Source of the DNA: Enterobacter sp. 10-1
GTDB lineage: Bacteria; Pseudomonadota; Gammaproteobacteria; Enterobacterales; Enterobacteriaceae
Reading direction: 5' to 3'
Assembly (NCBI GenBank): GCA_002270295.1
Contig: NISF01000001.1
Coordinates: 62,001 to 126,000 of the forward strand
DNA: 64,000 nucleotides
Made by a program: the position numbers and the translations under genes
Shown: in pieces, positions 47,280 to 56,484 of the stretch
Layout: the number at the start of each line of letters is the position of its first letter
Position numbering within the stretch: position 1 is the first letter of the stretch
Notes under the pieces: generated by a model
Database searches by the model: none
What the model saw: the letters and a program-made list of their open reading frames with translations, nothing else
What the model was told of the DNA's origin: nothing

Positions 47280-48458
47280 TTATTGTAAATTAAAGTCAAC
47301 CCATTGGCCGCCGGCGTCGGCGGATTTGACGCATTGTTCAACCCAGTAGACGCCGTGTAATCCTGCTTCCACATTTGGGTACCAGAAGTCTGCCAGCAGC
47401 TGAGCGTCGCCGCGATCCGTCGCATCAATGGCGATAGCGAAGCGGCGGTAGAGGTTTGCCCAGGCTTCGAACAGCCCCTCCGGATGACCGCCGCCGATGC
47501 GATCGTCCGCCAGCGCCTCGCGGCTGAGATAGGGCATTCCGCGTTCGAGGAGCCGGGCCGGTTCGCCCTGTACCTCATAGCTGAGCTGATTGGGCCGCTC
47601 ATCCCACCATTCGATGCTGGCCTTTTCCCCGACCACGCGCACCTTTTGCGAGTGCATTGCGCCGCTGTTGATCGCGCTGGTCCACATCGAACCGACGGCA
47701 CCGTTGTCGTACTCCATCAGCACGAAGGCGTTATCTTCCAGCGGCGCTCGGGACTTAACGAAGCTCTGGCGGGAGCACATCAGGCGCTTAATGTTGAGCT
47801 GCGGCACCATGGTTTCGGCGATAAACAGCGGGTGCGTTGCGAGGTCGCCCAGTACGTAGCTTGGGCCCGCGTACTCCGGCGTCACCCGCCAGCGGGTGGA
47901 CTCTGCCTGCAGTTCGACCGCCTCGTTATGAAAGCCGTGGGCGAACTGCATGGTGATCACCCGAATCTGGCCGAGCAGCCCTTCGGCGATCATCTGCCGC
48001 GCCTGCTGAACCATCTGATATCCGGCGTAGCCGTAGGTGACGCCTACGATCTTGTTGTGCCGGCGGCTCAGCGTCAGCAGTTCGTTGGCTTCGGCGGCGG
48101 TGAAGCATAGCGGCTTTTCGCAGATAACGTGCAGCCCGGCTTCCAGCGCGGCTTTAGCGATCGCGAAGTGGGTATTGTTTGGCGTGGTGACCGACACCGC
48201 CTCGACGCCATCGGGACGCCGCGCCTCCTCGCGAAACAGGGTTTGATAATCGGCGTAGCAGCGCTCTGGCGCGATGCCGAGCTGCTGGCCAAACTGGCGT
48301 CCGCGTTCGGCATCGATATCGAGTGCGCCCGCCAGCAGGGTAAAGACGTTGTCGCGCAGCGCCGCAGAGCGGTGGCTGTAGCCAATCTGGCTGGTGCCGC
48401 CGCCGCCGATCATGCCCCAGCGCAGGGAACGGGACAGGGGGTTCATGCCGTTTAACAT
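47280..48458 (-). CDS. Gfo/Idh/MocA-family oxidoreductase
   Basis: 392 residues. N-terminal NAD(P)-binding domain starts WGMIGGGGTSQIG (residues 14-26) and includes the EKPL motif with the catalytic Lys (about 115). The C-terminal substrate domain has GGHPEGLFEAWANLY with the His often used in catalysis. The family oxidises cyclic polyols, inositols and sugars. It is on the same strand as the flavoprotein operon but 314 bp away with a hairpin between them, so it is probably a separate unit. AAAGGAGAG precedes the ATG. Confidence 0.88.
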   Translation of the reverse strand: MLNGMNPLSRSLRWGMIGGGGTSQIGYSHRSAALRDNVFTLLAGALDIDAERGRQFGQQLGIAPERCYADYQTLFREEARRPDGVEAVSVTTPNNTHFAIAKAALEAGLHVICEKPLCFTAAEANELLTLSRRHNKIVGVTYGYAGYQMVQQARQMIAEGLLGQIRVITMQFAHGFHNEAVELQAESTRWRVTPEYAGPSYVLGDLATHPLFIAETMVPQLNIKRLMCSRQSFVKSRAPLEDNAFVLMEYDNGAVGSMWTSAINSGAMHSQKVRVVGEKASIEWWDERPNQLSYEVQGEPARLLERGMPYLSREALADDRIGGGHPEGLFEAWANLYRRFAIAIDATDRGDAQLLADFWYPNVEAGLHGVYWVEQCVKSADAGGQWVDFNLQ

Positions 48459-48772: not shown

Positions 48773-50137
48773 TCACGACGCGCTCCTGGCTGCGGCGGAT
48801 GAGGCGGTATCGTTCGCGTGGGAGCCATCGGCAAACAGCTCTTTTGCAATAAGCCCTGCTACGGTCAGGGCCGCCGGAATACCGAGGATCAAAAAGACGC
48901 TTTCAAAGCTGAGGTTTAGCGCCATCATTTCGGCGCCGGCAAAGGCGCTGATAATAGCCCCGACGCGGCCGATGCCGTGCATCCAGCTGGAGCCGGTGGC
49001 TCGCGCCTGGGTCGGATAAAAGCGCGCAGAGAGCGCGTTCATCCCGGTATTGCCGCCGTTCAGACAGGCTCCGCTAATAAAGGCCAGAAGGCACAGAAGG
49101 GTAAAGCTGGCCGCGGCGTAGCCCATTGCCATCGTGAAAATCCCGCCAATGGCAAAAATGACCGCCAGCGCACGGTGCGGGTTAATGCGGTCCATCAGCC
49201 AGCCGGCAAACAGCGAGCCCAGGGTTCCGCCGGCCTGATATATGGCGGTCATGATTGCCGCCTGGCTTACCGTCATGCCGACCTCTTTAACCAGCGTCGG
49301 CAGCCAGCTGCCCAGCAGATAGACCAGAAAGAGCCCCATAAAATAGACCAGCCACAGCATCAGCGAGCCGAAGCGATACCGGCGGGAGAGCACGATGCGC
49401 ATTGCGCTGCCGCTGACGGGCTGCGCTGGCAGGGTAAACTCCGCGTCATCGGCGATTTGTCCGGGATAAAGCCGCCGTAAAATCGTGCGGACCCGCGCCG
49501 CCGGAGCGCCCTTAATCACCAGAAAACGTACTGATTCCGGTAGCTTCCAGATAAGCAGCGGCGCAAACAAAATAGGCAGCACGCCACCTAAGGCCATTAA
49601 GGAGTGCCAGCCAAACCGCGGGATCAGCCACGAGGCGGAAAATCCTCCCGCCGCCGCGCCGAAGGTGAAGCCGCAAAAGATAATCGTAATAATGAAAGAT
49701 CGCCGTCGCTCCGGGGCATATTCTGAGACCAGGGTCCCCATGTTCGGCATCGCGGCCCCCAGTCCGAGTCCGGTCATAAAGCGAAAGAAGATCATCTGAT
49801 CGATATTTTGTGAAAATGCGGTGGCGATGGTCCAGAAGCCAAAAAAGAAGACGCTGTTAACGATGATTTTTTTCCGTCCCAGCCAGTCGGCAAGCGGGCC
49901 GGAAAAAATCGCTCCCAGCGCGAGGCCAATCAGCGCGGCGCTAATGACAAAGCCGAGCTCATGGTTGGTGACCCCCCACTCCTGTTTCAAGGTGGGGGCG
50001 ATAAAACCCATAATCGCGATATCAAAACCGTCCAGCGCAATCACGCAGAAACCTAAGAAAACCACCAGCTTCTGATAGCGGCTCAAGGGGTTATGGTTAA
50101 TTAACTCTCTGACATCCAGGCGTTGAGTCTGTGTCAT
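48773..50137 (-). CDS. MFS transporter, aromatic acid:H+ symporter type
   Basis: 454 residues, 12 membrane helices. The start LVVFLGFCVIALDGFDIAIMGFIAPTL carries the DGFD motif in helix 1, a hallmark of the AAHS group (PcaK, BenK, MhpT-like), followed by GPLADWLGRKK between helices 2 and 3 and PNMGTLVSEYAPERRR between 4 and 5. This predicts uptake of an aromatic or hydroaromatic carboxylate with protons. The ATG at 50137 has GGAGG upstream; the open frame beyond it is not used. It is last in the six-gene operon, 10 bp after the TIM-barrel gene. Confidence 0.92.
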   Translation of the reverse strand: MTQTQRLDVRELINHNPLSRYQKLVVFLGFCVIALDGFDIAIMGFIAPTLKQEWGVTNHELGFVISAALIGLALGAIFSGPLADWLGRKKIIVNSVFFFGFWTIATAFSQNIDQMIFFRFMTGLGLGAAMPNMGTLVSEYAPERRRSFIITIIFCGFTFGAAAGGFSASWLIPRFGWHSLMALGGVLPILFAPLLIWKLPESVRFLVIKGAPAARVRTILRRLYPGQIADDAEFTLPAQPVSGSAMRIVLSRRYRFGSLMLWLVYFMGLFLVYLLGSWLPTLVKEVGMTVSQAAIMTAIYQAGGTLGSLFAGWLMDRINPHRALAVIFAIGGIFTMAMGYAAASFTLLCLLAFISGACLNGGNTGMNALSARFYPTQARATGSSWMHGIGRVGAIISAFAGAEMMALNLSFESVFLILGIPAALTVAGLIAKELFADGSHANDTASSAAARSAS

Positions 50138-50147
50138 AGTGCCTCCC

Positions 50148-50966
50148 TCAGGCGGATGGCTGCAGATAGGTCTGCGCGGCCTTGAACAGCAGCTGCGCGC
50201 GCTCAAGCGCGGGCAGGGCGCCCCGGTCGCCGCTTAACGGCACCTCGAGAGAGACGGCGAGAGTCGCCGGAAGGGCGGCCATCAGGCCCGGTAGATCGAG
50301 CCCGCCCTCGCCGGGAATGTTACGCGCGGCGCGGGCCTGATGGATAAGCTCCTGCTCATCGCTCGGGATAGCTGACGGAGCGTCACACAGCTGCATATAG
50401 TTCAGGTAATGGTGCGGGAGGCGGGAGAGCGCTTCGAGCGATTCGCCCCCTCGCCAGAAATGGATGGCGTCGATCAGAATACCAACATCCGATCTGCCGC
50501 TGGCGTCAATCAAGCTGCGGGCAGCGGCAATAGTGCGCAGGCAGGTCCACGGCATGGGTTCGAGATTCATCGTTAAACCATACTCTTGACCTGCCTGCGC
50601 CAGCGCCGCGAGGTTATCCGCGCTACGGTTGAGATGGCTATCGTTGCCGGCGACCAGCACCTGTTTCGCCCCCAGCCGCTCGGCGGTTTGCATAAACAGA
50701 CGCAGTCGCGCATCCAGCGCAAAGTCTGGCGTCAGGCGAACAATTTCAACATCGGAGACGCGAATGCCGGTATCGCGCAGCGCCGCTAAGGTTTCGCGAA
50801 CGGTGGCGGTATCGCCGAGCATGTCGTAGTTCGGGTCGGATGGCGTGGCGGGAAGTAGCCGCAGTCCGACGTGGGTAAAGCCGGTTTGGGCGGCAATCCG
50901 CACCTGTTCCGGCGGCGAAACATCCAGCAGGGTCAGTGCGGCGAGTGATAGGGTACGCATGTTCAT
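50148..50966 (-). CDS. Xylose-isomerase-like TIM barrel protein
   Basis: 272 residues, sugar phosphate isomerase/epimerase (AP endonuclease 2) superfamily. Likely metal ligands follow the family pattern: Glu in SDVEIVRL, Glu in NLEPMPW (about 135), Asp and His in ILIDAIHFW, Gln in YMQLCDAP and Glu in VSLEVPL. The ATG at 50966 follows GGAG. Members include isomerases, epimerases and 3-dehydroshikimate dehydratases (AsbF/QuiC class). In an operon with a shikimate-dehydrogenase-like protein and an aromatic-acid transporter, a dehydratase or isomerase acting on a ring compound is the more likely role; this is inference. Confidence 0.85.
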   Translation of the reverse strand: MNMRTLSLAALTLLDVSPPEQVRIAAQTGFTHVGLRLLPATPSDPNYDMLGDTATVRETLAALRDTGIRVSDVEIVRLTPDFALDARLRLFMQTAERLGAKQVLVAGNDSHLNRSADNLAALAQAGQEYGLTMNLEPMPWTCLRTIAAARSLIDASGRSDVGILIDAIHFWRGGESLEALSRLPHHYLNYMQLCDAPSAIPSDEQELIHQARAARNIPGEGGLDLPGLMAALPATLAVSLEVPLSGDRGALPALERAQLLFKAAQTYLQPSA

Positions 50967-51030
50967 AAGGACTCCGGTACAGTGGCAGATGGTTGTTGTT
51001 ATGTGTACTACCGTCCCTGGCGGGTGTGAC

Positions 51031-52734
51031 TTACTTCATTGTTTTATTTATGTTTTCTGTCAGATTTTTACCAACAAGATAACCAAAGGTCATCGCCGGG
51101 CCGAGCGTAATACCGCCGCTGGGATAGTATCCCCGCATCACGCTCGACATATCGTTACCGATGGCATAGAGGCCGGCGATGGGCTGCTGCTGCGCATCCA
51201 GCACGCGGGCCTGTTCATCGGTTTTCAAGCCGCTAAACGATCCGAGCGAACCCGGCAGAATGCGTACCGCATAGAAAGGGGGTTGGCTCAGCGCGCCTAA
51301 GGTCGGGTGGTGAGGATTGGCGGCGTCGCCCTGGGCCTGGTTATAGGCCGAGGCTCCGCGCTGGAACTCATCGTCCCTGCCGCGGGCGGCGAAGGTATTA
51401 AAGCGGCTGATGGTCTCCTTCAACCGGACGCTATCAATAGCGCATTTTTCCGCCAGCGCCTCCAGCGTCTCGCCGGACTGCAGATAGCCGGTGCGAAGCC
51501 ATGCCCTGGTCGAGAAAGGGGCCGGACGAGCATGGCCCAGACCATAGCGGCGCAGCGCCCGGCTGTCGGCAAGCAGCCACGCCTGCGGAGTTTCTCCGGG
51601 CGGCGTGGCCTCCAGCAGCGCGGCAATAAAGTCGTGATAGGAGTCGGCTTCGTTGGTGAAGCGCCTGCCGTTGGGCAGCACGGCGACAAACCCGGGCTTA
51701 GCGCGTTCCACCAGGTGCGGGAACGGCAGCTGCAGGCCGCTGGCGAGGGTGACGCGGGAAACCGGCGCCCAGGCCATCGCGTGTCTGAGAGAGTCGTCAA
51801 ACTGACCGCCGACCGACTCTCCCAGGCGGATCCCGTCCCCCGCGTTGCCCGGCGGGGCGGCAGAGAAGTGGCCGTAGCCGTTTGCGGCGTGGGCGACATG
51901 CTGAGCCAGGCGCTGCTTATCGTGGGGGAAGCCGCCGCAGGCGAGAATAACCGCATTTGCGCTGACCTGAACTGGACCCTCATCGCCGCGTAATACCGCG
52001 CCGGTCACGCCGGCTGATGACGTTAAGAGACGTTCTACCGGCGCATTCAGCCGGAAGTTGACGCCGGCATCCAGCGCCGCGCGCAGCAGGCGCGCCATCA
52101 GCGCGTTGCCGTTGACCAGATGCCGTCCGCGACCGTGGCGTAAGCGCTGCCAGCCGTGGCGCAGCAGGCGCCGCGCGGCATACAGCGCGGAGCGCGGAGA
52201 GCGAGTGGCGTTAAAGAAATGCGTCATGTCGGCGCCGCCAGCAATCCCCATTCCCGCAAGGCTGATTGTCTCCAGCGGCGGTCTCAGTCGATGCAGCCAG
52301 TCGCCGAGCAGGCGGCCATCGAACGGCCGGGCGGTGACGGAACGTCCGCCCTGCGCGTAGCCTGGCGAGTTGTGAAAATCAGGCATCCGGCTGCCGGAAA
52401 TAAACTGCACCGCCGTGTTATGGCGAAAGAAATCAATCATTTCCGGGCCGTAGCGAAGAAAAGTGAGCAGGCGGGCATCGGCGGATTGCCCCGCCATCTC
52501 GTGTTGAAGATAGGTGAGCGGCACGCTGGCGTCCTCTTCAATGCCTTCCTCGCGGGCCAGCGGATTGCGGGGGATCCACAGCCAGCCGCCGGACCAGGCG
52601 CTGGTGCCGCCAATCACCGACTCCTTTTCCGCCACCAGCACGCTGGCGCCGTTGAGGGCGGCGGTGACGGCGGCTGAGAGACCCGCCGCTCCGGAACCGA
52701 CAATCAGCACATCTACTTTCACATGCCCGCTCAT
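51031..52734 (-). CDS. FAD-dependent oxidoreductase, KstD/fumarate-reductase fold (copy 1)
   Basis: 567 residues. FAD-binding motif DVLIVGSGAAGLSAAV at residues 8-23, GGTSAWSGGWLWIP, and the closing LYAIGNDMSSVM and YYPSGGITLGPA. The last keeps Tyr537 and Gly541 in the position where 3-ketosteroid delta-1-dehydrogenase (KstD) holds its enolisation pair, and EADSYHDF matches a second active-site Tyr. The N-terminal Tyr pair of KstD is replaced by Phe-His (MPDFHNSPG, 118-126). It probably desaturates a cyclic ketone or reduces an enone, with a substrate unlike that of copy 2. AAGGAG precedes the ATG. No signal peptide or heme motif. Confidence 0.88.
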   Translation of the reverse strand: MSGHVKVDVLIVGSGAAGLSAAVTAALNGASVLVAEKESVIGGTSAWSGGWLWIPRNPLAREEGIEEDASVPLTYLQHEMAGQSADARLLTFLRYGPEMIDFFRHNTAVQFISGSRMPDFHNSPGYAQGGRSVTARPFDGRLLGDWLHRLRPPLETISLAGMGIAGGADMTHFFNATRSPRSALYAARRLLRHGWQRLRHGRGRHLVNGNALMARLLRAALDAGVNFRLNAPVERLLTSSAGVTGAVLRGDEGPVQVSANAVILACGGFPHDKQRLAQHVAHAANGYGHFSAAPPGNAGDGIRLGESVGGQFDDSLRHAMAWAPVSRVTLASGLQLPFPHLVERAKPGFVAVLPNGRRFTNEADSYHDFIAALLEATPPGETPQAWLLADSRALRRYGLGHARPAPFSTRAWLRTGYLQSGETLEALAEKCAIDSVRLKETISRFNTFAARGRDDEFQRGASAYNQAQGDAANPHHPTLGALSQPPFYAVRILPGSLGSFSGLKTDEQARVLDAQQQPIAGLYAIGNDMSSVMRGYYPSGGITLGPAMTFGYLVGKNLTENINKTMK

Positions 52735-52744
52735 CTATGGCTCC

Positions 52745-53065
52745 TTATTGCAGCGGTGAAAAATCGGTAGGGCGCAGCAGAACGGACTCCAGGCGCTCGA
52801 CGGCCGCCAGTTCGCGGTTTTTACGAGAGAAGGTGAGCCAGCGTTCGTCCTGCGCCATGCGCGCGCGGCGCACCAGACGATCGTCAAGGCTTTTATAAGC
52901 CCAGATATGCACGACCTGATTAACGACGCCAATCTCGGTAAAGAAAAAGCCAATCAGCTTGCCGAGGTGCTCGGTTTGCACGGCGTAGGCATCGCTTTTG
53001 TAGAGCGCCAGCCAGTCGGCCATTTTTAATGGGCTGATGGTGTAGGTACGTTTTTCGTAGATCAT
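52745..53065 (-). CDS. NIPSNAP-domain protein
   Basis: 106 residues, a single NIPSNAP (dimeric alpha/beta barrel) domain: MIYEKRTYTISPLKMADWLALY at the start and a central HIWAYKSLDDRLVRRARMAQD, both typical. The family is often found beside flavin oxidoreductases and ring-degrading enzymes in bacteria, but the molecular role is not established; binding of a hydrophobic product or intermediate is plausible. It is packed between the two flavoprotein genes with 10- and 13-bp gaps and has a good AGGAG site. Confidence 0.88.
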   Translation of the reverse strand: MIYEKRTYTISPLKMADWLALYKSDAYAVQTEHLGKLIGFFFTEIGVVNQVVHIWAYKSLDDRLVRRARMAQDERWLTFSRKNRELAAVERLESVLLRPTDFSPLQ

Positions 53066-53078
53066 GAAACTCTCCTGA

Positions 53079-54755
53079 TTAAAGTGCGGGTTGTTGCGCC
53101 AGGTGCGTGGCGCAGAGATAGCCGAAGGTGAGCGCCGGGCCGAGAGTGATTCCGGGACCGGGATAGGTCCCGGCCATCAGTGAATCCATATCATTGCCCA
53201 CGGCATACAGCCCTCTAATGGGCTGACCTTGTTGATTAATGACCTGAGCATCGGCGGTGGTGACCAGCCCGCGTGAGGTGCCCAAATCACCGGTGTAGAG
53301 CGTGATGGCGTAAAAGGGGGCCGCGGCGAGCGGGGCGTTACAGGCGTTAGGCTGGTGGCCGGGATCGCCCATCACACGGTTATAGCTGTTGCCTCCTTTG
53401 GTAAATTCCGTATCGCTGCCGCTGGCGGCATCTCGGTTGTAGCGGCTAACGGTAGCGGTCAGGGTTTGTCCATCGATCCCCAGCGCTTGCGCGAGCTGAG
53501 CGAGAGAATCCGCTTTGTGCAGATAGCCGGCCTTTATCAGCGCGTCGTTATTAACCGGAGCCGGGCGCGCCAGCCCCAGGCCGTAGCGCTTCATGGCCAG
53601 CGCATCGCAAATCAGATAGCAGGGCGCATTTTCCTCCTGGCTTTGCATGGCGCTGGCGAAATGGTGGTAGGAGTTAGATTCATTCACGAAACGCACGGCG
53701 CGCTGGTTAACGGCAATGACGCCGGGCTTGGCGCGATCGGTGACGAGGTGCGGGAAACGCTCTTCGCTGCCATCCGCATGGCGTAAGACGGAGACCGGCG
53801 CCCAGAAAAAGTTTGACGGTAAATCGGCTCCTTGCCTGGCGTTAAGCGTCGCCGTCAGGCGAAAAGCCGCGCCGTCATTGGCGTCGGGTGACATGGTGTA
53901 GTGTTCGCGCGTTTTCGGCCGGTACCGCGCCGCCAGCTGGCCAGCGGCAAATCCCCCGGCGGCCAGCACCACGCCCTGGCGCGCATGCAGCACGCTTCTC
54001 TGGCCGGCATGCTCAATCTCGACGCCGGTGACTTCACCGTTGCTTTCGATTAGCGACGTAACGTTTACGTTCAGCTGCAGGCTCATGCCCTTGCGAAAGG
54101 CGAGGGCGGCCATCCGCGCAATTAAGGCATTACCCATCGCCAGCCGGGTTCCGCGAGGATATTTCAGGCGATCGCGGCCATAGCGCAGCAGTAGCTTTGT
54201 GCAGTGGGTAAATGAGCGGAGCGAGCGGCGCATATCGAGAAAATGCTGAATATCGACGCGGTTGACCATCATGCCGCCGAATAGCAGCATCCCCGGCGGA
54301 GGCGATCGCAGTTCGCGAAATCGTGAGCCAAGCCTGCGGCCGTCGTATTCGACGACTTCAAGCGCGCGGCCAACGTCAACGGCGCCGGGTTCATCCGGGT
54401 AATAGTCGGGAGATAGCGGGCGCAGGCTGTATTTCACCGCGCCCTCTTTTTCCAGAAAGGCCAGCGCTTCACGGCCTGAACTGACGAAGGCATCCACCAT
54501 CTCCGGGCGGTAGTGCCGTTCGCCGATAATCGTCTTCAGGTAGGTTTTTATCGCGTGTTCCGGGCCGCTTTTTCCCTGCCTGCGCGCCTGGTCGGTATCG
54601 TTGATCCATACGGCTCCGCCTGAAATGGCCGAGGTGCCGCCAAACTGAGCGGCTTTCTCCAGCATCAGTACCGAGAGCCCTTTACAGCACGCCGTCACCG
54701 CTGCGGCAAAACCGGCGGCGCCGCTGCCGATAACAATAACGTCCCAGCTTTTCAT
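53079..54755 (-). CDS. FAD-dependent oxidoreductase, KstD-like (copy 2)
   Basis: 558 residues. FAD motif DVIVIGSGAAGFAAAV (residues 5-20) and ending LYAVGNDMDSLMAGTYPGPGITLGPA. It keeps the full KstD pattern: PDYYPDEPG with Tyr118-Tyr119, ESNSYHHF with Tyr363, and YPGPG with Tyr531 and Gly535. KstD enzymes remove two hydrogens alpha,beta to a ring ketone, passing electrons through FAD to a quinone or other acceptor. It overlaps the AroE-like gene by 4 bp (ATGA), so that enzyme may supply its ketone substrate. The true substrate is unknown; steroid use is unlikely from context. Confidence 0.9.
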   Translation of the reverse strand: MKSWDVIVIGSGAAGFAAAVTACCKGLSVLMLEKAAQFGGTSAISGGAVWINDTDQARRQGKSGPEHAIKTYLKTIIGERHYRPEMVDAFVSSGREALAFLEKEGAVKYSLRPLSPDYYPDEPGAVDVGRALEVVEYDGRRLGSRFRELRSPPPGMLLFGGMMVNRVDIQHFLDMRRSLRSFTHCTKLLLRYGRDRLKYPRGTRLAMGNALIARMAALAFRKGMSLQLNVNVTSLIESNGEVTGVEIEHAGQRSVLHARQGVVLAAGGFAAGQLAARYRPKTREHYTMSPDANDGAAFRLTATLNARQGADLPSNFFWAPVSVLRHADGSEERFPHLVTDRAKPGVIAVNQRAVRFVNESNSYHHFASAMQSQEENAPCYLICDALAMKRYGLGLARPAPVNNDALIKAGYLHKADSLAQLAQALGIDGQTLTATVSRYNRDAASGSDTEFTKGGNSYNRVMGDPGHQPNACNAPLAAAPFYAITLYTGDLGTSRGLVTTADAQVINQQGQPIRGLYAVGNDMDSLMAGTYPGPGITLGPALTFGYLCATHLAQQPAL

Positions 54756-55573
54756 GCGATGGCCCCTTCTTCATGAGCGATGGCGCCAATGAACTGCCCC
54801 ATCAGCTTCATCTGCGCTAACGCCATTTCAGGCCCGGTTTGCACCACGCAGCCCCGGGCTTGAGCGAAGGTCAGCAGGGGAGTCATCACCGGCGCGGTGA
54901 CGACATCGGCGACATAAGTGGCGGCTTCCAGAGTATCCAGCAGGGTCTGCGGCAGCGGCAGCGCGTCAAAGCCGCTCATTCCGGCGGGGGAGCCGTTGAC
55001 CAGCAAATCAATACCGTCCAGGGTGTCCGGCAGCGTGGCGAGGTGCAGCTCAGGAAAGCGAGTGGCCAGGCGGTTGTGCAGCAGCTGCAGAGTGGCCGAA
55101 TTCTGGTCGTGGAGAGTCAGGTGGGTGATGCCCGCTTCGCATAAACCCCACGCGATGGCGCTCCCTACGCCGCCGCAGCCTGACAGCAGCGCTTTTTTTC
55201 CGCTGGCCTGAAAACCCCGCGTTTTTGCGGCAAGAAGAAAGCCGACGCCGTCCAGCATATCGCCCTCTAAGCGGCCGTCCGGCAGCTTACGCACCACGTT
55301 TACCGCGTTGAGGTGGCGCGCTCGCGGAGTGAGTTCATCGACCAGGGCGGCGACGCGCTGTTTGTGCGGAACGGTAACCAGCACGCCGCTCATATTCTGC
55401 CATCCACGTAACGCGTTCAGGTAATCAGCCACCGCCTCTGGCACGATATCAACCGGGATCATCACGCTGTCCTGGCTTTGCTCTGCAAAGTGACGGTTGA
55501 AATTCTCCGGTGATTTAACCTGGGTAATAGGGTGGCCGATGACGGCAACAACCTGAGTGGATCCACTGACCAT
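54752..55573 (-). CDS. Shikimate/quinate dehydrogenase-like protein (AroE paralogue)
   Basis: 273 residues from the ATG at 55573, which has GAGG 6 bp upstream; a GTG four codons earlier is open but less well placed. The substrate domain has VKSP (residues 19-22) and VTVPHK, whose Lys is catalytic; the Asp partner is in GDMLDGVGF. The NAD(P) domain has SGCGGVGSAIA. In AroE/YdiB the first motif is SxSP, with both Ser holding the carboxylate; here the first Ser is Val, so the substrate probably differs. It is first in the operon, next to the regulator. It is likely to oxidise a ring alcohol to a ketone. Confidence 0.88.
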   Translation of the reverse strand: MVSGSTQVVAVIGHPITQVKSPENFNRHFAEQSQDSVMIPVDIVPEAVADYLNALRGWQNMSGVLVTVPHKQRVAALVDELTPRARHLNAVNVVRKLPDGRLEGDMLDGVGFLLAAKTRGFQASGKKALLSGCGGVGSAIAWGLCEAGITHLTLHDQNSATLQLLHNRLATRFPELHLATLPDTLDGIDLLVNGSPAGMSGFDALPLPQTLLDTLEAATYVADVVTAPVMTPLLTFAQARGCVVQTGPEMALAQMKLMGQFIGAIAHEEGAIA

Positions 55574-55659
55574 TTCAAACCTCACTTGTTAAATGAATGT
55601 TGTGAAAGTATTTCAGTGGACGCTGGGAGCGGCAACGCAGAATTCGGACGTGTTGGTTG

Positions 55660-55690
55660 TTAATCGCACCATCACTGCGATAATCGCACT
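55660..55690. promoter_or_regulatory. Three-unit operator of the IclR-type regulator
   Basis: TAATCGCAC occurs at 55661-55669 and again at 55681-55689, exactly 20 bp apart, and an inverted copy (TGCGAT, 55676-55681) lies between, so ATCGCA-N7-TGCGAT forms a palindrome. A palindrome plus a direct repeat is the layout described for PcaU/PobR-type IclR proteins. It sits in the 152-bp region between the regulator and the operon it probably controls. Confidence 0.7.
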
Positions 55691-55725
55691 AAACTGATAG
55701 TCTTGTTGCAAAAGTGTGAACAACT

Positions 55726-56484
55726 ATGCAAAACCAAATACATCCACGCGATTTGATCGTCGGGCTGCAAAAAGGGCTGGCGCTGATCCAGCTTTTTTCA
55801 CGAGAGTATCCCCGTCTCTCCGTACCGCAGGCGGCAAAAATGAGCGGGCTGACGCAAAGCGCGGCGCGGCGATTCTTTCTCACGCTGCTGCATGAGCGCT
55901 ACCTGCAGACCGACGGGCGCTACTACTGGCTTACGCCAAAAGCGCTGCGTCTGGGGCAGGCCTATGTTGATTCGGCCCAGTTCCCGCGGATGGTGCGGCC
56001 GATTGTCGAGTACATTGCCAGCCGCACGGAGGAGCACGCCTCGGTTGGGGTGATTGATGATGACGAGCTGGTTTATATCGCCCGCAGCAAACACACGCCG
56101 TTTAACTCCACCTCGGTTCGGCTGGGGGAGAGGGTACCGATTCACTGCACCGCCGGCGGACGTTTGTGGCTGGCATCGTTGCCGGAGGCAGAGTGCGAAA
56201 CGGTCCTGCAGCGCATCAGGCGCGAACAGCGCACCCCTTATACGGTGACCGATATTGCGCCGCTGATGGAAAAGATCGCCCAAATCCGTCGCCAGGGATA
56301 TGCCGCGATCGAGCAGGAGTTTGAAATTGGGATGTTAGTGCTGGCGGTGCCGCTGGCCGACAGGGAAGGGGTGTACTGGGGAGCGCTGAGCTTAACCAGC
56401 CATCTGTCGCGGACTTCGCTTGATGCCTTATGCCGCGATCATCTTGATTTACTCTACAGCGCGCAGGCGATGCTGATTAGCTAA
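55726..56484 (+). CDS. IclR-family regulator, PcaU/PobR-like
   Basis: 252 residues. N-terminal winged helix at residues 9-70 (LIVGLQKGLALIQLFSREYPRLSVPQAAKMSGLTQSAARRFFLTL) and the IclR effector domain from about residue 80, with ASVGVIDDDELVYIAR, IHCTAGGRLWLA and GYAAIEQEFEIGMLVLAVPL. The sequence style (GLQKGLALI...SQARRFLLTL-like) is that of PcaR/PcaU regulators of protocatechuate and hydroaromatic catabolism. It is divergent from the six-gene operon. The ribosome-binding site is weak (AAAAGTGTG). Confidence 0.9.
   Translation: MQNQIHPRDLIVGLQKGLALIQLFSREYPRLSVPQAAKMSGLTQSAARRFFLTLLHERYLQTDGRYYWLTPKALRLGQAYVDSAQFPRMVRPIVEYIASRTEEHASVGVIDDDELVYIARSKHTPFNSTSVRLGERVPIHCTAGGRLWLASLPEAECETVLQRIRREQRTPYTVTDIAPLMEKIAQIRRQGYAAIEQEFEIGMLVLAVPLADREGVYWGALSLTSHLSRTSLDALCRDHLDLLYSAQAMLIS

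Follow-up and report, generated by a model that had tools for sequence, protein, structure and literature searches.

A conserved enteric operon with a PcaU-type regulator and a predicted role in hydroaromatic acid oxidation

We analyzed a stretch of 64,000 nucleotides of Enterobacter sp. 10-1 (contig NISF01000001.1; hereafter the window), which holds at positions 48773-56484 an operon of six genes and a divergent regulatory gene. On balance, this operon seems to serve the peripheral catabolism of a hydroaromatic carboxylic acid that differs from ordinary quinate and shikimate and would be oxidized to protocatechuate. The first-pass annotation had proposed that the operon oxidizes a hydroaromatic acid, is controlled by a PcaU-type regulator of its own and feeds the protocatechuate pathway, and this is supported by relatives of the operon, some of which lie near pcaGHCD, pobA or quinate genes, and by the presence of pcaH in all eight sampled genomes carrying its AroE marker. 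The operon probably serves another hydroaromatic acid because pcaHG, the dehydroshikimate dehydratase QuiC and a quinate-family pyrroloquinoline quinone (PQQ) dehydrogenase are encoded elsewhere in the genome. A search of one literature library, judged by titles and the beginnings of abstracts, found no paper describing this gene set.

Genes and predicted reactions

All seven genes are present as long open reading frames, and in a profile search all named families scored above their Pfam cut-offs (MFS_1, the AP_endonuc_2 triosephosphate isomerase (TIM) barrel, FAD_binding_2 twice, NIPSNAP, Shikimate_dh_N, and IclR_C with HTH_IclR). The minus strand carries, in order, an AroE-like NAD-type dehydrogenase of class II with a changed substrate pocket (54752-55573), the KstD-like flavoprotein KSTD1 of the 'c' type (53079-54755), a single-domain NIPSNAP protein of 106 amino acids (52745-53065), the KstD-like flavoprotein KSTD2 of the 'a' type (51031-52734), a xylose-isomerase-like TIM barrel of 272 amino acids (50148-50966), and an AAHS-type (PcaK-like) aromatic/hydroaromatic acid:H+ symporter of 454 amino acids (48773-50137). 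The IclR-family regulator of the PcaR/PcaU/PobR type (55726-56484) is divergent on the plus strand. The AroE-like and KSTD1 genes overlap by 4 base pairs (bp) and the subsequent gaps measure 13, 10, 64 and 10 bp, which bears out the earlier description of six tightly packed same-strand genes beside a divergent PcaU-like regulator, with two starts moved. The AroE-like protein most likely starts at ATG 55573 and not at GTG 55585, because GAGG lies upstream and the homologue 4k28 begins at the same residue, and the transporter start was corrected from TTG 50206 to ATG 50137.

From the genes, their layout, the operator, conservation, gene sets, catalytic residues and host context, we infer the reactions, their order, the substrate and the effector as follows. 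The AAHS symporter would import the acid, and the AroE-like enzyme would use NAD+ to oxidize a ring hydroxyl to an alpha-hydroxyketone, which the metal-dependent TIM barrel would shift or epimerize, in the manner of IolI-type enzymes acting on a six-membered ring. The two KstD-like flavoproteins would desaturate the ring next to the ketone, introducing one double bond apiece, and the NIPSNAP protein may assist as a tautomerase or partner, so that the ring would be aromatized via oxidation rather than water loss, with a final tautomerization to protocatechuate. The product, most likely protocatechuate, would be cleaved by PcaHG encoded elsewhere. A 3,4-dihydroxycyclohexanecarboxylate-like acid is a candidate substrate: the change from C7H12O4 to C7H6O4 is a loss of six hydrogens, that is, three two-electron steps, and the operon has three oxidoreductases, a bookkeeping that is suggestive and falls short of proof. 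Plants and fermenting bacteria are sources of reduced ring acids, and bacteria form dihydroshikimate and dihydroxycyclohexanecarboxylate.

The AroE-like protein reached none of the curated equivalog cut-offs for AroE, YdiB or QDH (best 150.4 against 252). Its alignment keeps N86, Q244, the NAD-type Asp and Lys65/Asp102, which we take to be the catalytic pair, while S14, N59 and Y215, presumably substrate contacts, are changed to V, L and T, and T101 to L; the 10 class I AroEs from related clusters show no such changes. It is improbable that the operon is a backup or variant quinate/shikimate pathway, in which this enzyme would oxidize quinate or shikimate and the other genes would handle by-products or epimers. 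Such a role would suit the membership of the AroE family, the closest solved sequence (4k28, a shikimate dehydrogenase family protein) and the relatives clustered with dehydroquinase and QuiC, but quinate or shikimate needs no pair of ring desaturases, the four pocket positions are altered, and QuiC, a further AroE paralogue and a quinate/shikimate-family PQQ dehydrogenase are encoded at other sites in the host.

Equivalents of the KstD residues Tyr318, Tyr487 and Gly491, whose catalytic roles are given in PMC5348764, are kept in 32/32 aligned KstD proteins, KSTD1 and KSTD2 included; the Tyr119 equivalent is Tyr in KSTD1 and Phe in KSTD2. These preserved residues would fit desaturation beside a ring ketone. 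KSTD2 scored 750.6 against PRK06134, its best NCBIfam model and an FAD-dependent oxidoreductase subfamily without a named function, thus above the cut-off of 747, and KSTD1 scored 611.5, below it; the best model of KSTD1 is PRK12843 (648.9 against a cut-off of 758, also below). PRK12843 was the best model for 5/5 c-type proteins tested and PRK06134 for 4/4 a/b-type proteins tested, and KSTD1 stands in the tree on a long branch outside the a/b group. The 3-ketosteroid 1-dehydrogenase models PRK07843, PRK12844 and PRK12845, with cut-offs of 788-793, gave no more than 427 bits. Elsewhere in the genome, a 935-amino-acid open frame (C34:137569-138891; L003, L004) encodes a distant KstD/fumarate-reductase-like flavoprotein (27-33% identity).

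Both flavoproteins also match the models of ChcC1 and ChcC2, the 4-oxocyclohexanecarboxylate desaturases of cyclohexanecarboxylate aromatization. There is accordingly a small chance that the operon converts 4-hydroxy- or 4-oxocyclohexanecarboxylate to 4-hydroxybenzoate as a functional parallel of that desaturase pair, to which the PcaK-like transporter and the pobA genes near two double-KstD clusters (L077 and L090; see below) would be suited. The scores are far under the cut-offs (ChcC1: 338 bits for KSTD2 and 324 for KSTD1 against 1000; ChcC2: 488 and 437 against 900), and such a route leaves no job for a TIM-barrel enzyme acting on an alpha-hydroxyketone.

The TIM barrel had been suggested to be a 3-dehydroshikimate dehydratase, and this was not supported. 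It possesses the metal ligands and the catalytic His of the QuiC/AroZ TIM domain (metal site E136, D166, Q192 and E241, with H169, R212 and R215): E136, D166 and E241 are found in 29/29 TIM rows and 10/10 QuiC rows of the alignment, H169 in 28/29 TIM rows and Q192 in 23/29, with His in the other six. R36, D72, E74, D109 and R172 (29/29 TIM rows) and C194 (28/29) differ from the QuiC residues, the genome has a separate QuiC, and several related loci carry QuiC alongside this TIM barrel (see below), so that a QuiC-type dehydratase is ruled out as a simple reading. The TIM barrel scored 34 bits against the QuiC/AroZ model, whose cut-off of 1200 is also missed by the genome's own QuiC on C32 (761). 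Its predicted fold resembles sugar isomerases, with IolI, the QuiC TIM domain (18-20% identity to either) and Lmo2234 tied, and is thus undecisive on function. The NIPSNAP protein scored 111.1 bits against the PF07978 gathering score of 22.3. For the transporter, the best NCBIfam model, PcaK (NF053517), gave 503.3 bits against a cut-off of 770, and TIGR00895 gave 417.1, narrowly under 418.55.

Regulator, operator and conservation in enteric bacteria

The IclR protein scored 266.1 bits against TIGR02431, just under the cut-off of 284.75. This PcaU-type protein would bind a conserved three-box site and respond to the substrate or the product. We propose as this site a PcaU-like operator, apparently newly described here, at 55655-55688 (minus strand), which has the three boxes of the operators of PcaR/PcaU/PobR regulators: the palindrome TGCGATTATCGCA (55676-55688) and the external direct half-site GTGCGATTA. 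The 152-bp intergenic stretch holds GCGATTATCGCA-N6-GTGCGATTAACAACC, in which all but the six spacer bases are the same in 21/21 enteric sequences. In PMC8222616, a palindrome with an external direct half-site is reported for PcaU and PobR, and the CGATTATCG core agrees with the PcaR/PcaU consensus given there, from which the bases adjoining the core deviate. The perfect palindrome occurs once in the whole genome; sites with one mismatch are genome-wide about as many as in a reversed control, and matches with two mismatches show no excess over chance within the window. The candidate operator is thus supported because it is conserved, the regulon search having given no excess of imperfect sites. 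In a Burkholderia multivorans relative the same palindrome stands between IclR and AroE, without an identical third box; that stretch (L050:4686-7866) holds an IclR protein (55%), a class II AroE (49%) and an adjoining MFS transporter, and no match to KstD, NIPSNAP or TIM.

A single scan of named genomes yielded 22 loci. In 20 of them the seven genes stand next to cyoE in an unchanged order, with yajR reached in 18 of these 20 stretches. They span Raoultella, Klebsiella, Kluyvera, Pseudocitrobacter, Intestinirhabdus and one Enterobacter strain, and the window genome itself stands near Raoultella terrigena (AroE 95%). The seven genes are approximately full length in 18 of the 20 loci; L032 has a split AAHS gene, and in L047 (CP022114) six of the seven genes are incomplete, likely through assembly errors because cyoE and yajR are split there as well. 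The other two loci (L046, L049) hold an AroE relative alone, or AroE with an AAHS transporter and a partial TIM barrel. L049:1243-9482, from a metagenome-assembled genome of Candidatus Acinetobacter avistercoris, contains a PQQ dehydrogenase, an AAHS transporter, a class II AroE and the first part of a TIM barrel (57%), cut off where the contig ends, together with TonB-receptor-like and IclR-like open reading frames recognized by eye.

The ratio of nonsynonymous to synonymous substitution rates (dN/dS) was 0.016-0.197 for all seven genes (7 of the 20 named loci compared), and that of NIPSNAP was the lowest of the seven in 5/7 comparisons. Since order and place are the same in relatives and dN/dS is low, the genes form more than a chance block. 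When L032 and L047 are set aside, the operon tree reproduces each of the six well-supported cyoE splits, and the GC content of the block (0.57-0.63) is near that of the neighboring kilobases (0.52-0.62, one of them 0.46), which rules out a recent acquisition. The block, previously called an island of extra metabolism, is instead, as judged from these comparisons, an old, vertically kept insertion in six enteric genera, with the same seven genes beside cyoE in 20/20 enteric loci. The block is absent from E. coli: in the single genome inspected, only 148 bp separate cyoE from yajR, and no DNA similar to either KstD gene was found in 5426 E. coli genomes. A Caballeronia NIPSNAP protein (61%) was rejected as a sign of a donor cluster, as no other operon gene was matched nearby, short-chain dehydrogenase/reductase (SDR) probes excepted.

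The operon probably ends at a terminator-like hairpin of 10 pairs (9 G-C) 3' of the transporter (48676-48652, minus strand), a signal that is weak alone (15 terminator-like matches, where shuffled sequence gave a mean of 8.1). It separates the operon from a Gfo/Idh gene (47280-48458), which is ruled out as a member by the 314-bp gap with the hairpin in between; no match to this gene was found in the Kluyvera and Pseudocitrobacter stretches. Klebsiella grimontii has between the operon and the Gfo/Idh gene an additional open reading frame (L031:17112-18623), which reads by eye as an MFS transporter, and L029, L032 and L033 have a gap of similar size there.

Host context and related clusters beyond the enteric bacteria

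Elsewhere the genome of Enterobacter sp. 10-1 encodes QuiC with an MFS transporter and an AroE paralogue (L083), pcaHG above the cut-off, and, near pcaHG and a LysR-like gene, a PQQ membrane dehydrogenase of the glucose/quinate/shikimate family (L109:4952-10126). Ordinary quinate and shikimate thus seem to be served already in this host. The QuiC locus (L083:5547-10499) comprises a TetR-like gene, a QuiC-type dehydratase fusion, the MFS transporter and the AroE paralogue, whose pocket is itself unusual, with F, A, L and M at the positions of S14, S16, N59 and Y215.

In a sample of 198 genomes of the family, we used the operon AroE alone as a marker (E <= 1e-120) and found it in 8 genomes, pcaH in 23 and QuiC in 32 at the thresholds used. 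The marker co-occurred with pca genes: pcaH was present in 8/8 marker genomes against 23/198 overall, and QuiC in 7/8, although only partially in two of these seven; the naive chance values (1e-8 for pcaH, 1e-5 for QuiC) are inflated by kinship.

Outside the enteric bacteria, matches to the TIM barrel were found in 2/369 class-level and 19/398 phylum-level genomes (own genome included), and in 398 plasmid records as well. The 28 TIM-bearing loci considered (the window, 17 genome stretches and 10 plasmid stretches) fall into two architectures and a remainder. A double-KstD type with class II AroE, KstD a, KstD c, NIPSNAP and TIM was found in 9/28 (the window, L077, L078, L079, L080, L081, L086, L090 and L103), a single-KstD type with class I AroE, KstD a only and no NIPSNAP in another 9/28 (L082, L084, L085, L087, L088, L093, L096, L101 and L104), and neither type in 10/28 (L089, L091, L092, L094, L095, L097, L098, L099, L100 and L102). 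QuiC lies in the same stretch as TIM in 10 of the 27 fetched loci, with a fragment in one more. Within the two types, it is present in 7/9 single-KstD loci (in L082 and L088 it extends past the end of the stretch; L104 has a fragment, and in L096 it is unseen) and in 2/9 double-KstD loci. This distribution would be expected if the second desaturase takes the place of the dehydratase. For those single-KstD clusters that have QuiC, the matching conversion would be dihydroshikimate to protocatechuate by two oxidations and one dehydration. L077 adjoins pcaGHCD and pobA, the latter being also near L090, and L085 adjoins PcaB/D/C-like genes and three more that read by eye like pcaIJF. We put forward, tentatively and with more doubt than belief, that the set of AroE-II, KstD-a, KstD-c, NIPSNAP and TIM represents an undescribed, widespread proteobacterial pathway in which polyhydroxycyclohexane acids would be aromatized to protocatechuate by three oxidations and no dehydration, with NIPSNAP as a dedicated catalytic part.

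Several observations weigh against the pathway inferred for the operon. The 28 loci are not random, the 10 plasmid loci having been chosen by hand, some for a KstD or AroE near the TIM match; the 17 genome stretches alone comprise 6 single, 2 double and 9 of neither type (6 of these 9 without any KstD), and placing the two architectures on the TIM tree takes two changes, so that they are not phylogenetically independent counts. CGATWATCG was not found in the upstream stretches checked of 8/8 non-enteric double-KstD clusters, and their regulators are more distant. Our confidence in an oxidative aromatization is slightly lowered because the loci are partly hand-picked and the operator was not found outside the enterics save for the B. 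multivorans palindrome. The co-occurrence with pcaH is confounded by kinship, and most operon proteins score under curated equivalog cut-offs. KstD relatives also occur in other settings, with 3/3 further neighborhoods lacking an annotated AroE, NIPSNAP or pca gene; they stand with SDR, acyl-CoA, tripartite ATP-independent periplasmic (TRAP) or sugar-isomerase genes, L124 having a sugar phosphate isomerase/epimerase gene. These settings, and the sugar-isomerase-like fold of the TIM barrel, would be in keeping with an action on another substrate (a steroid fragment, terpenoid or cyclitol), which we hold to be very improbable in view of the pca/quinate surroundings of several related clusters, the PcaU-type regulator with its operator, and the AAHS transporter.

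QuiC is moreover strong in 19/20 named operon genomes (split in one of them), for which reason an endpoint at dehydroshikimate still has to be allowed for. A class II-like AroE also stands beside QuiC (L053 and the own-genome L083) or in the cluster of QuiC (L077), and the product of such QuiC-associated enzymes may be dehydroshikimate. Together with the usual presence of QuiC and AroE in single-KstD clusters, this would accord with a fairly unlikely alternative in which AroE oxidizes dihydroshikimate, one KstD forms 3-dehydroshikimate and the chromosomal QuiC yields protocatechuate, with the second KstD and NIPSNAP acting on a side substrate. That route leaves the second KstD without explanation, 7/9 double-KstD clusters are without QuiC in the fetched stretch, and Intestinirhabdus alba has the operon and pcaH without a good QuiC. 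I. alba (L036/G938) is the only operon genome of this kind, with a weak 33% QuiC match and pcaH found in the matching genome G042, and is a natural test case for a dehydratase-free route.

Implications and comparison with known systems

If the preferred interpretation, an oxidation of a hydroaromatic acid to protocatechuate, is true, Klebsiella, Raoultella and relatives would be able to channel reduced ring acids into the beta-ketoadipate pathway by a second way, separate from the known quinate/shikimate route. A NIPSNAP protein would then have a catabolic role, as would two families that NCBIfam calls only 'FAD-dependent oxidoreductase', and the operon would provide enzymes that may aromatize hydroaromatic acids with no dehydratase involved. 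Its gene set and operator make this pathway directly testable.

By analogy, the operon shares with ChcC1/ChcC2 (models NF053676/NF053677) two serial KstD-like desaturases and a ring-alcohol dehydrogenase. The dehydrogenase is SDR-type in cyclohexanecarboxylate degradation and AroE-type here, and the window operon further differs in the extra TIM barrel and NIPSNAP protein, the PcaU-type regulation and the low model scores. With quinate/shikimate catabolism (QuiA/QDH, dehydroquinase, QuiC and pca) it has in common an AroE-family dehydrogenase, a hydroaromatic context, a likely protocatechuate sink and shared clusters, but it lacks dehydroquinase and QuiC, possesses two desaturases and a changed AroE pocket, and resides in a host with QuiC and pcaHG elsewhere. 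The TIM barrel is set apart from the QuiC TIM domain by its own residues at R36, D72, E74, D109, R172 and C194. In comparison with PMC8222616, the regulatory part resembles PcaU, PobR and PcaR in the TIGR02431 match, the divergent gene and the palindrome with an external direct half-site, and differs from them in a score just under the subfamily cut-off and in the bases flanking the CGATTATCG core.

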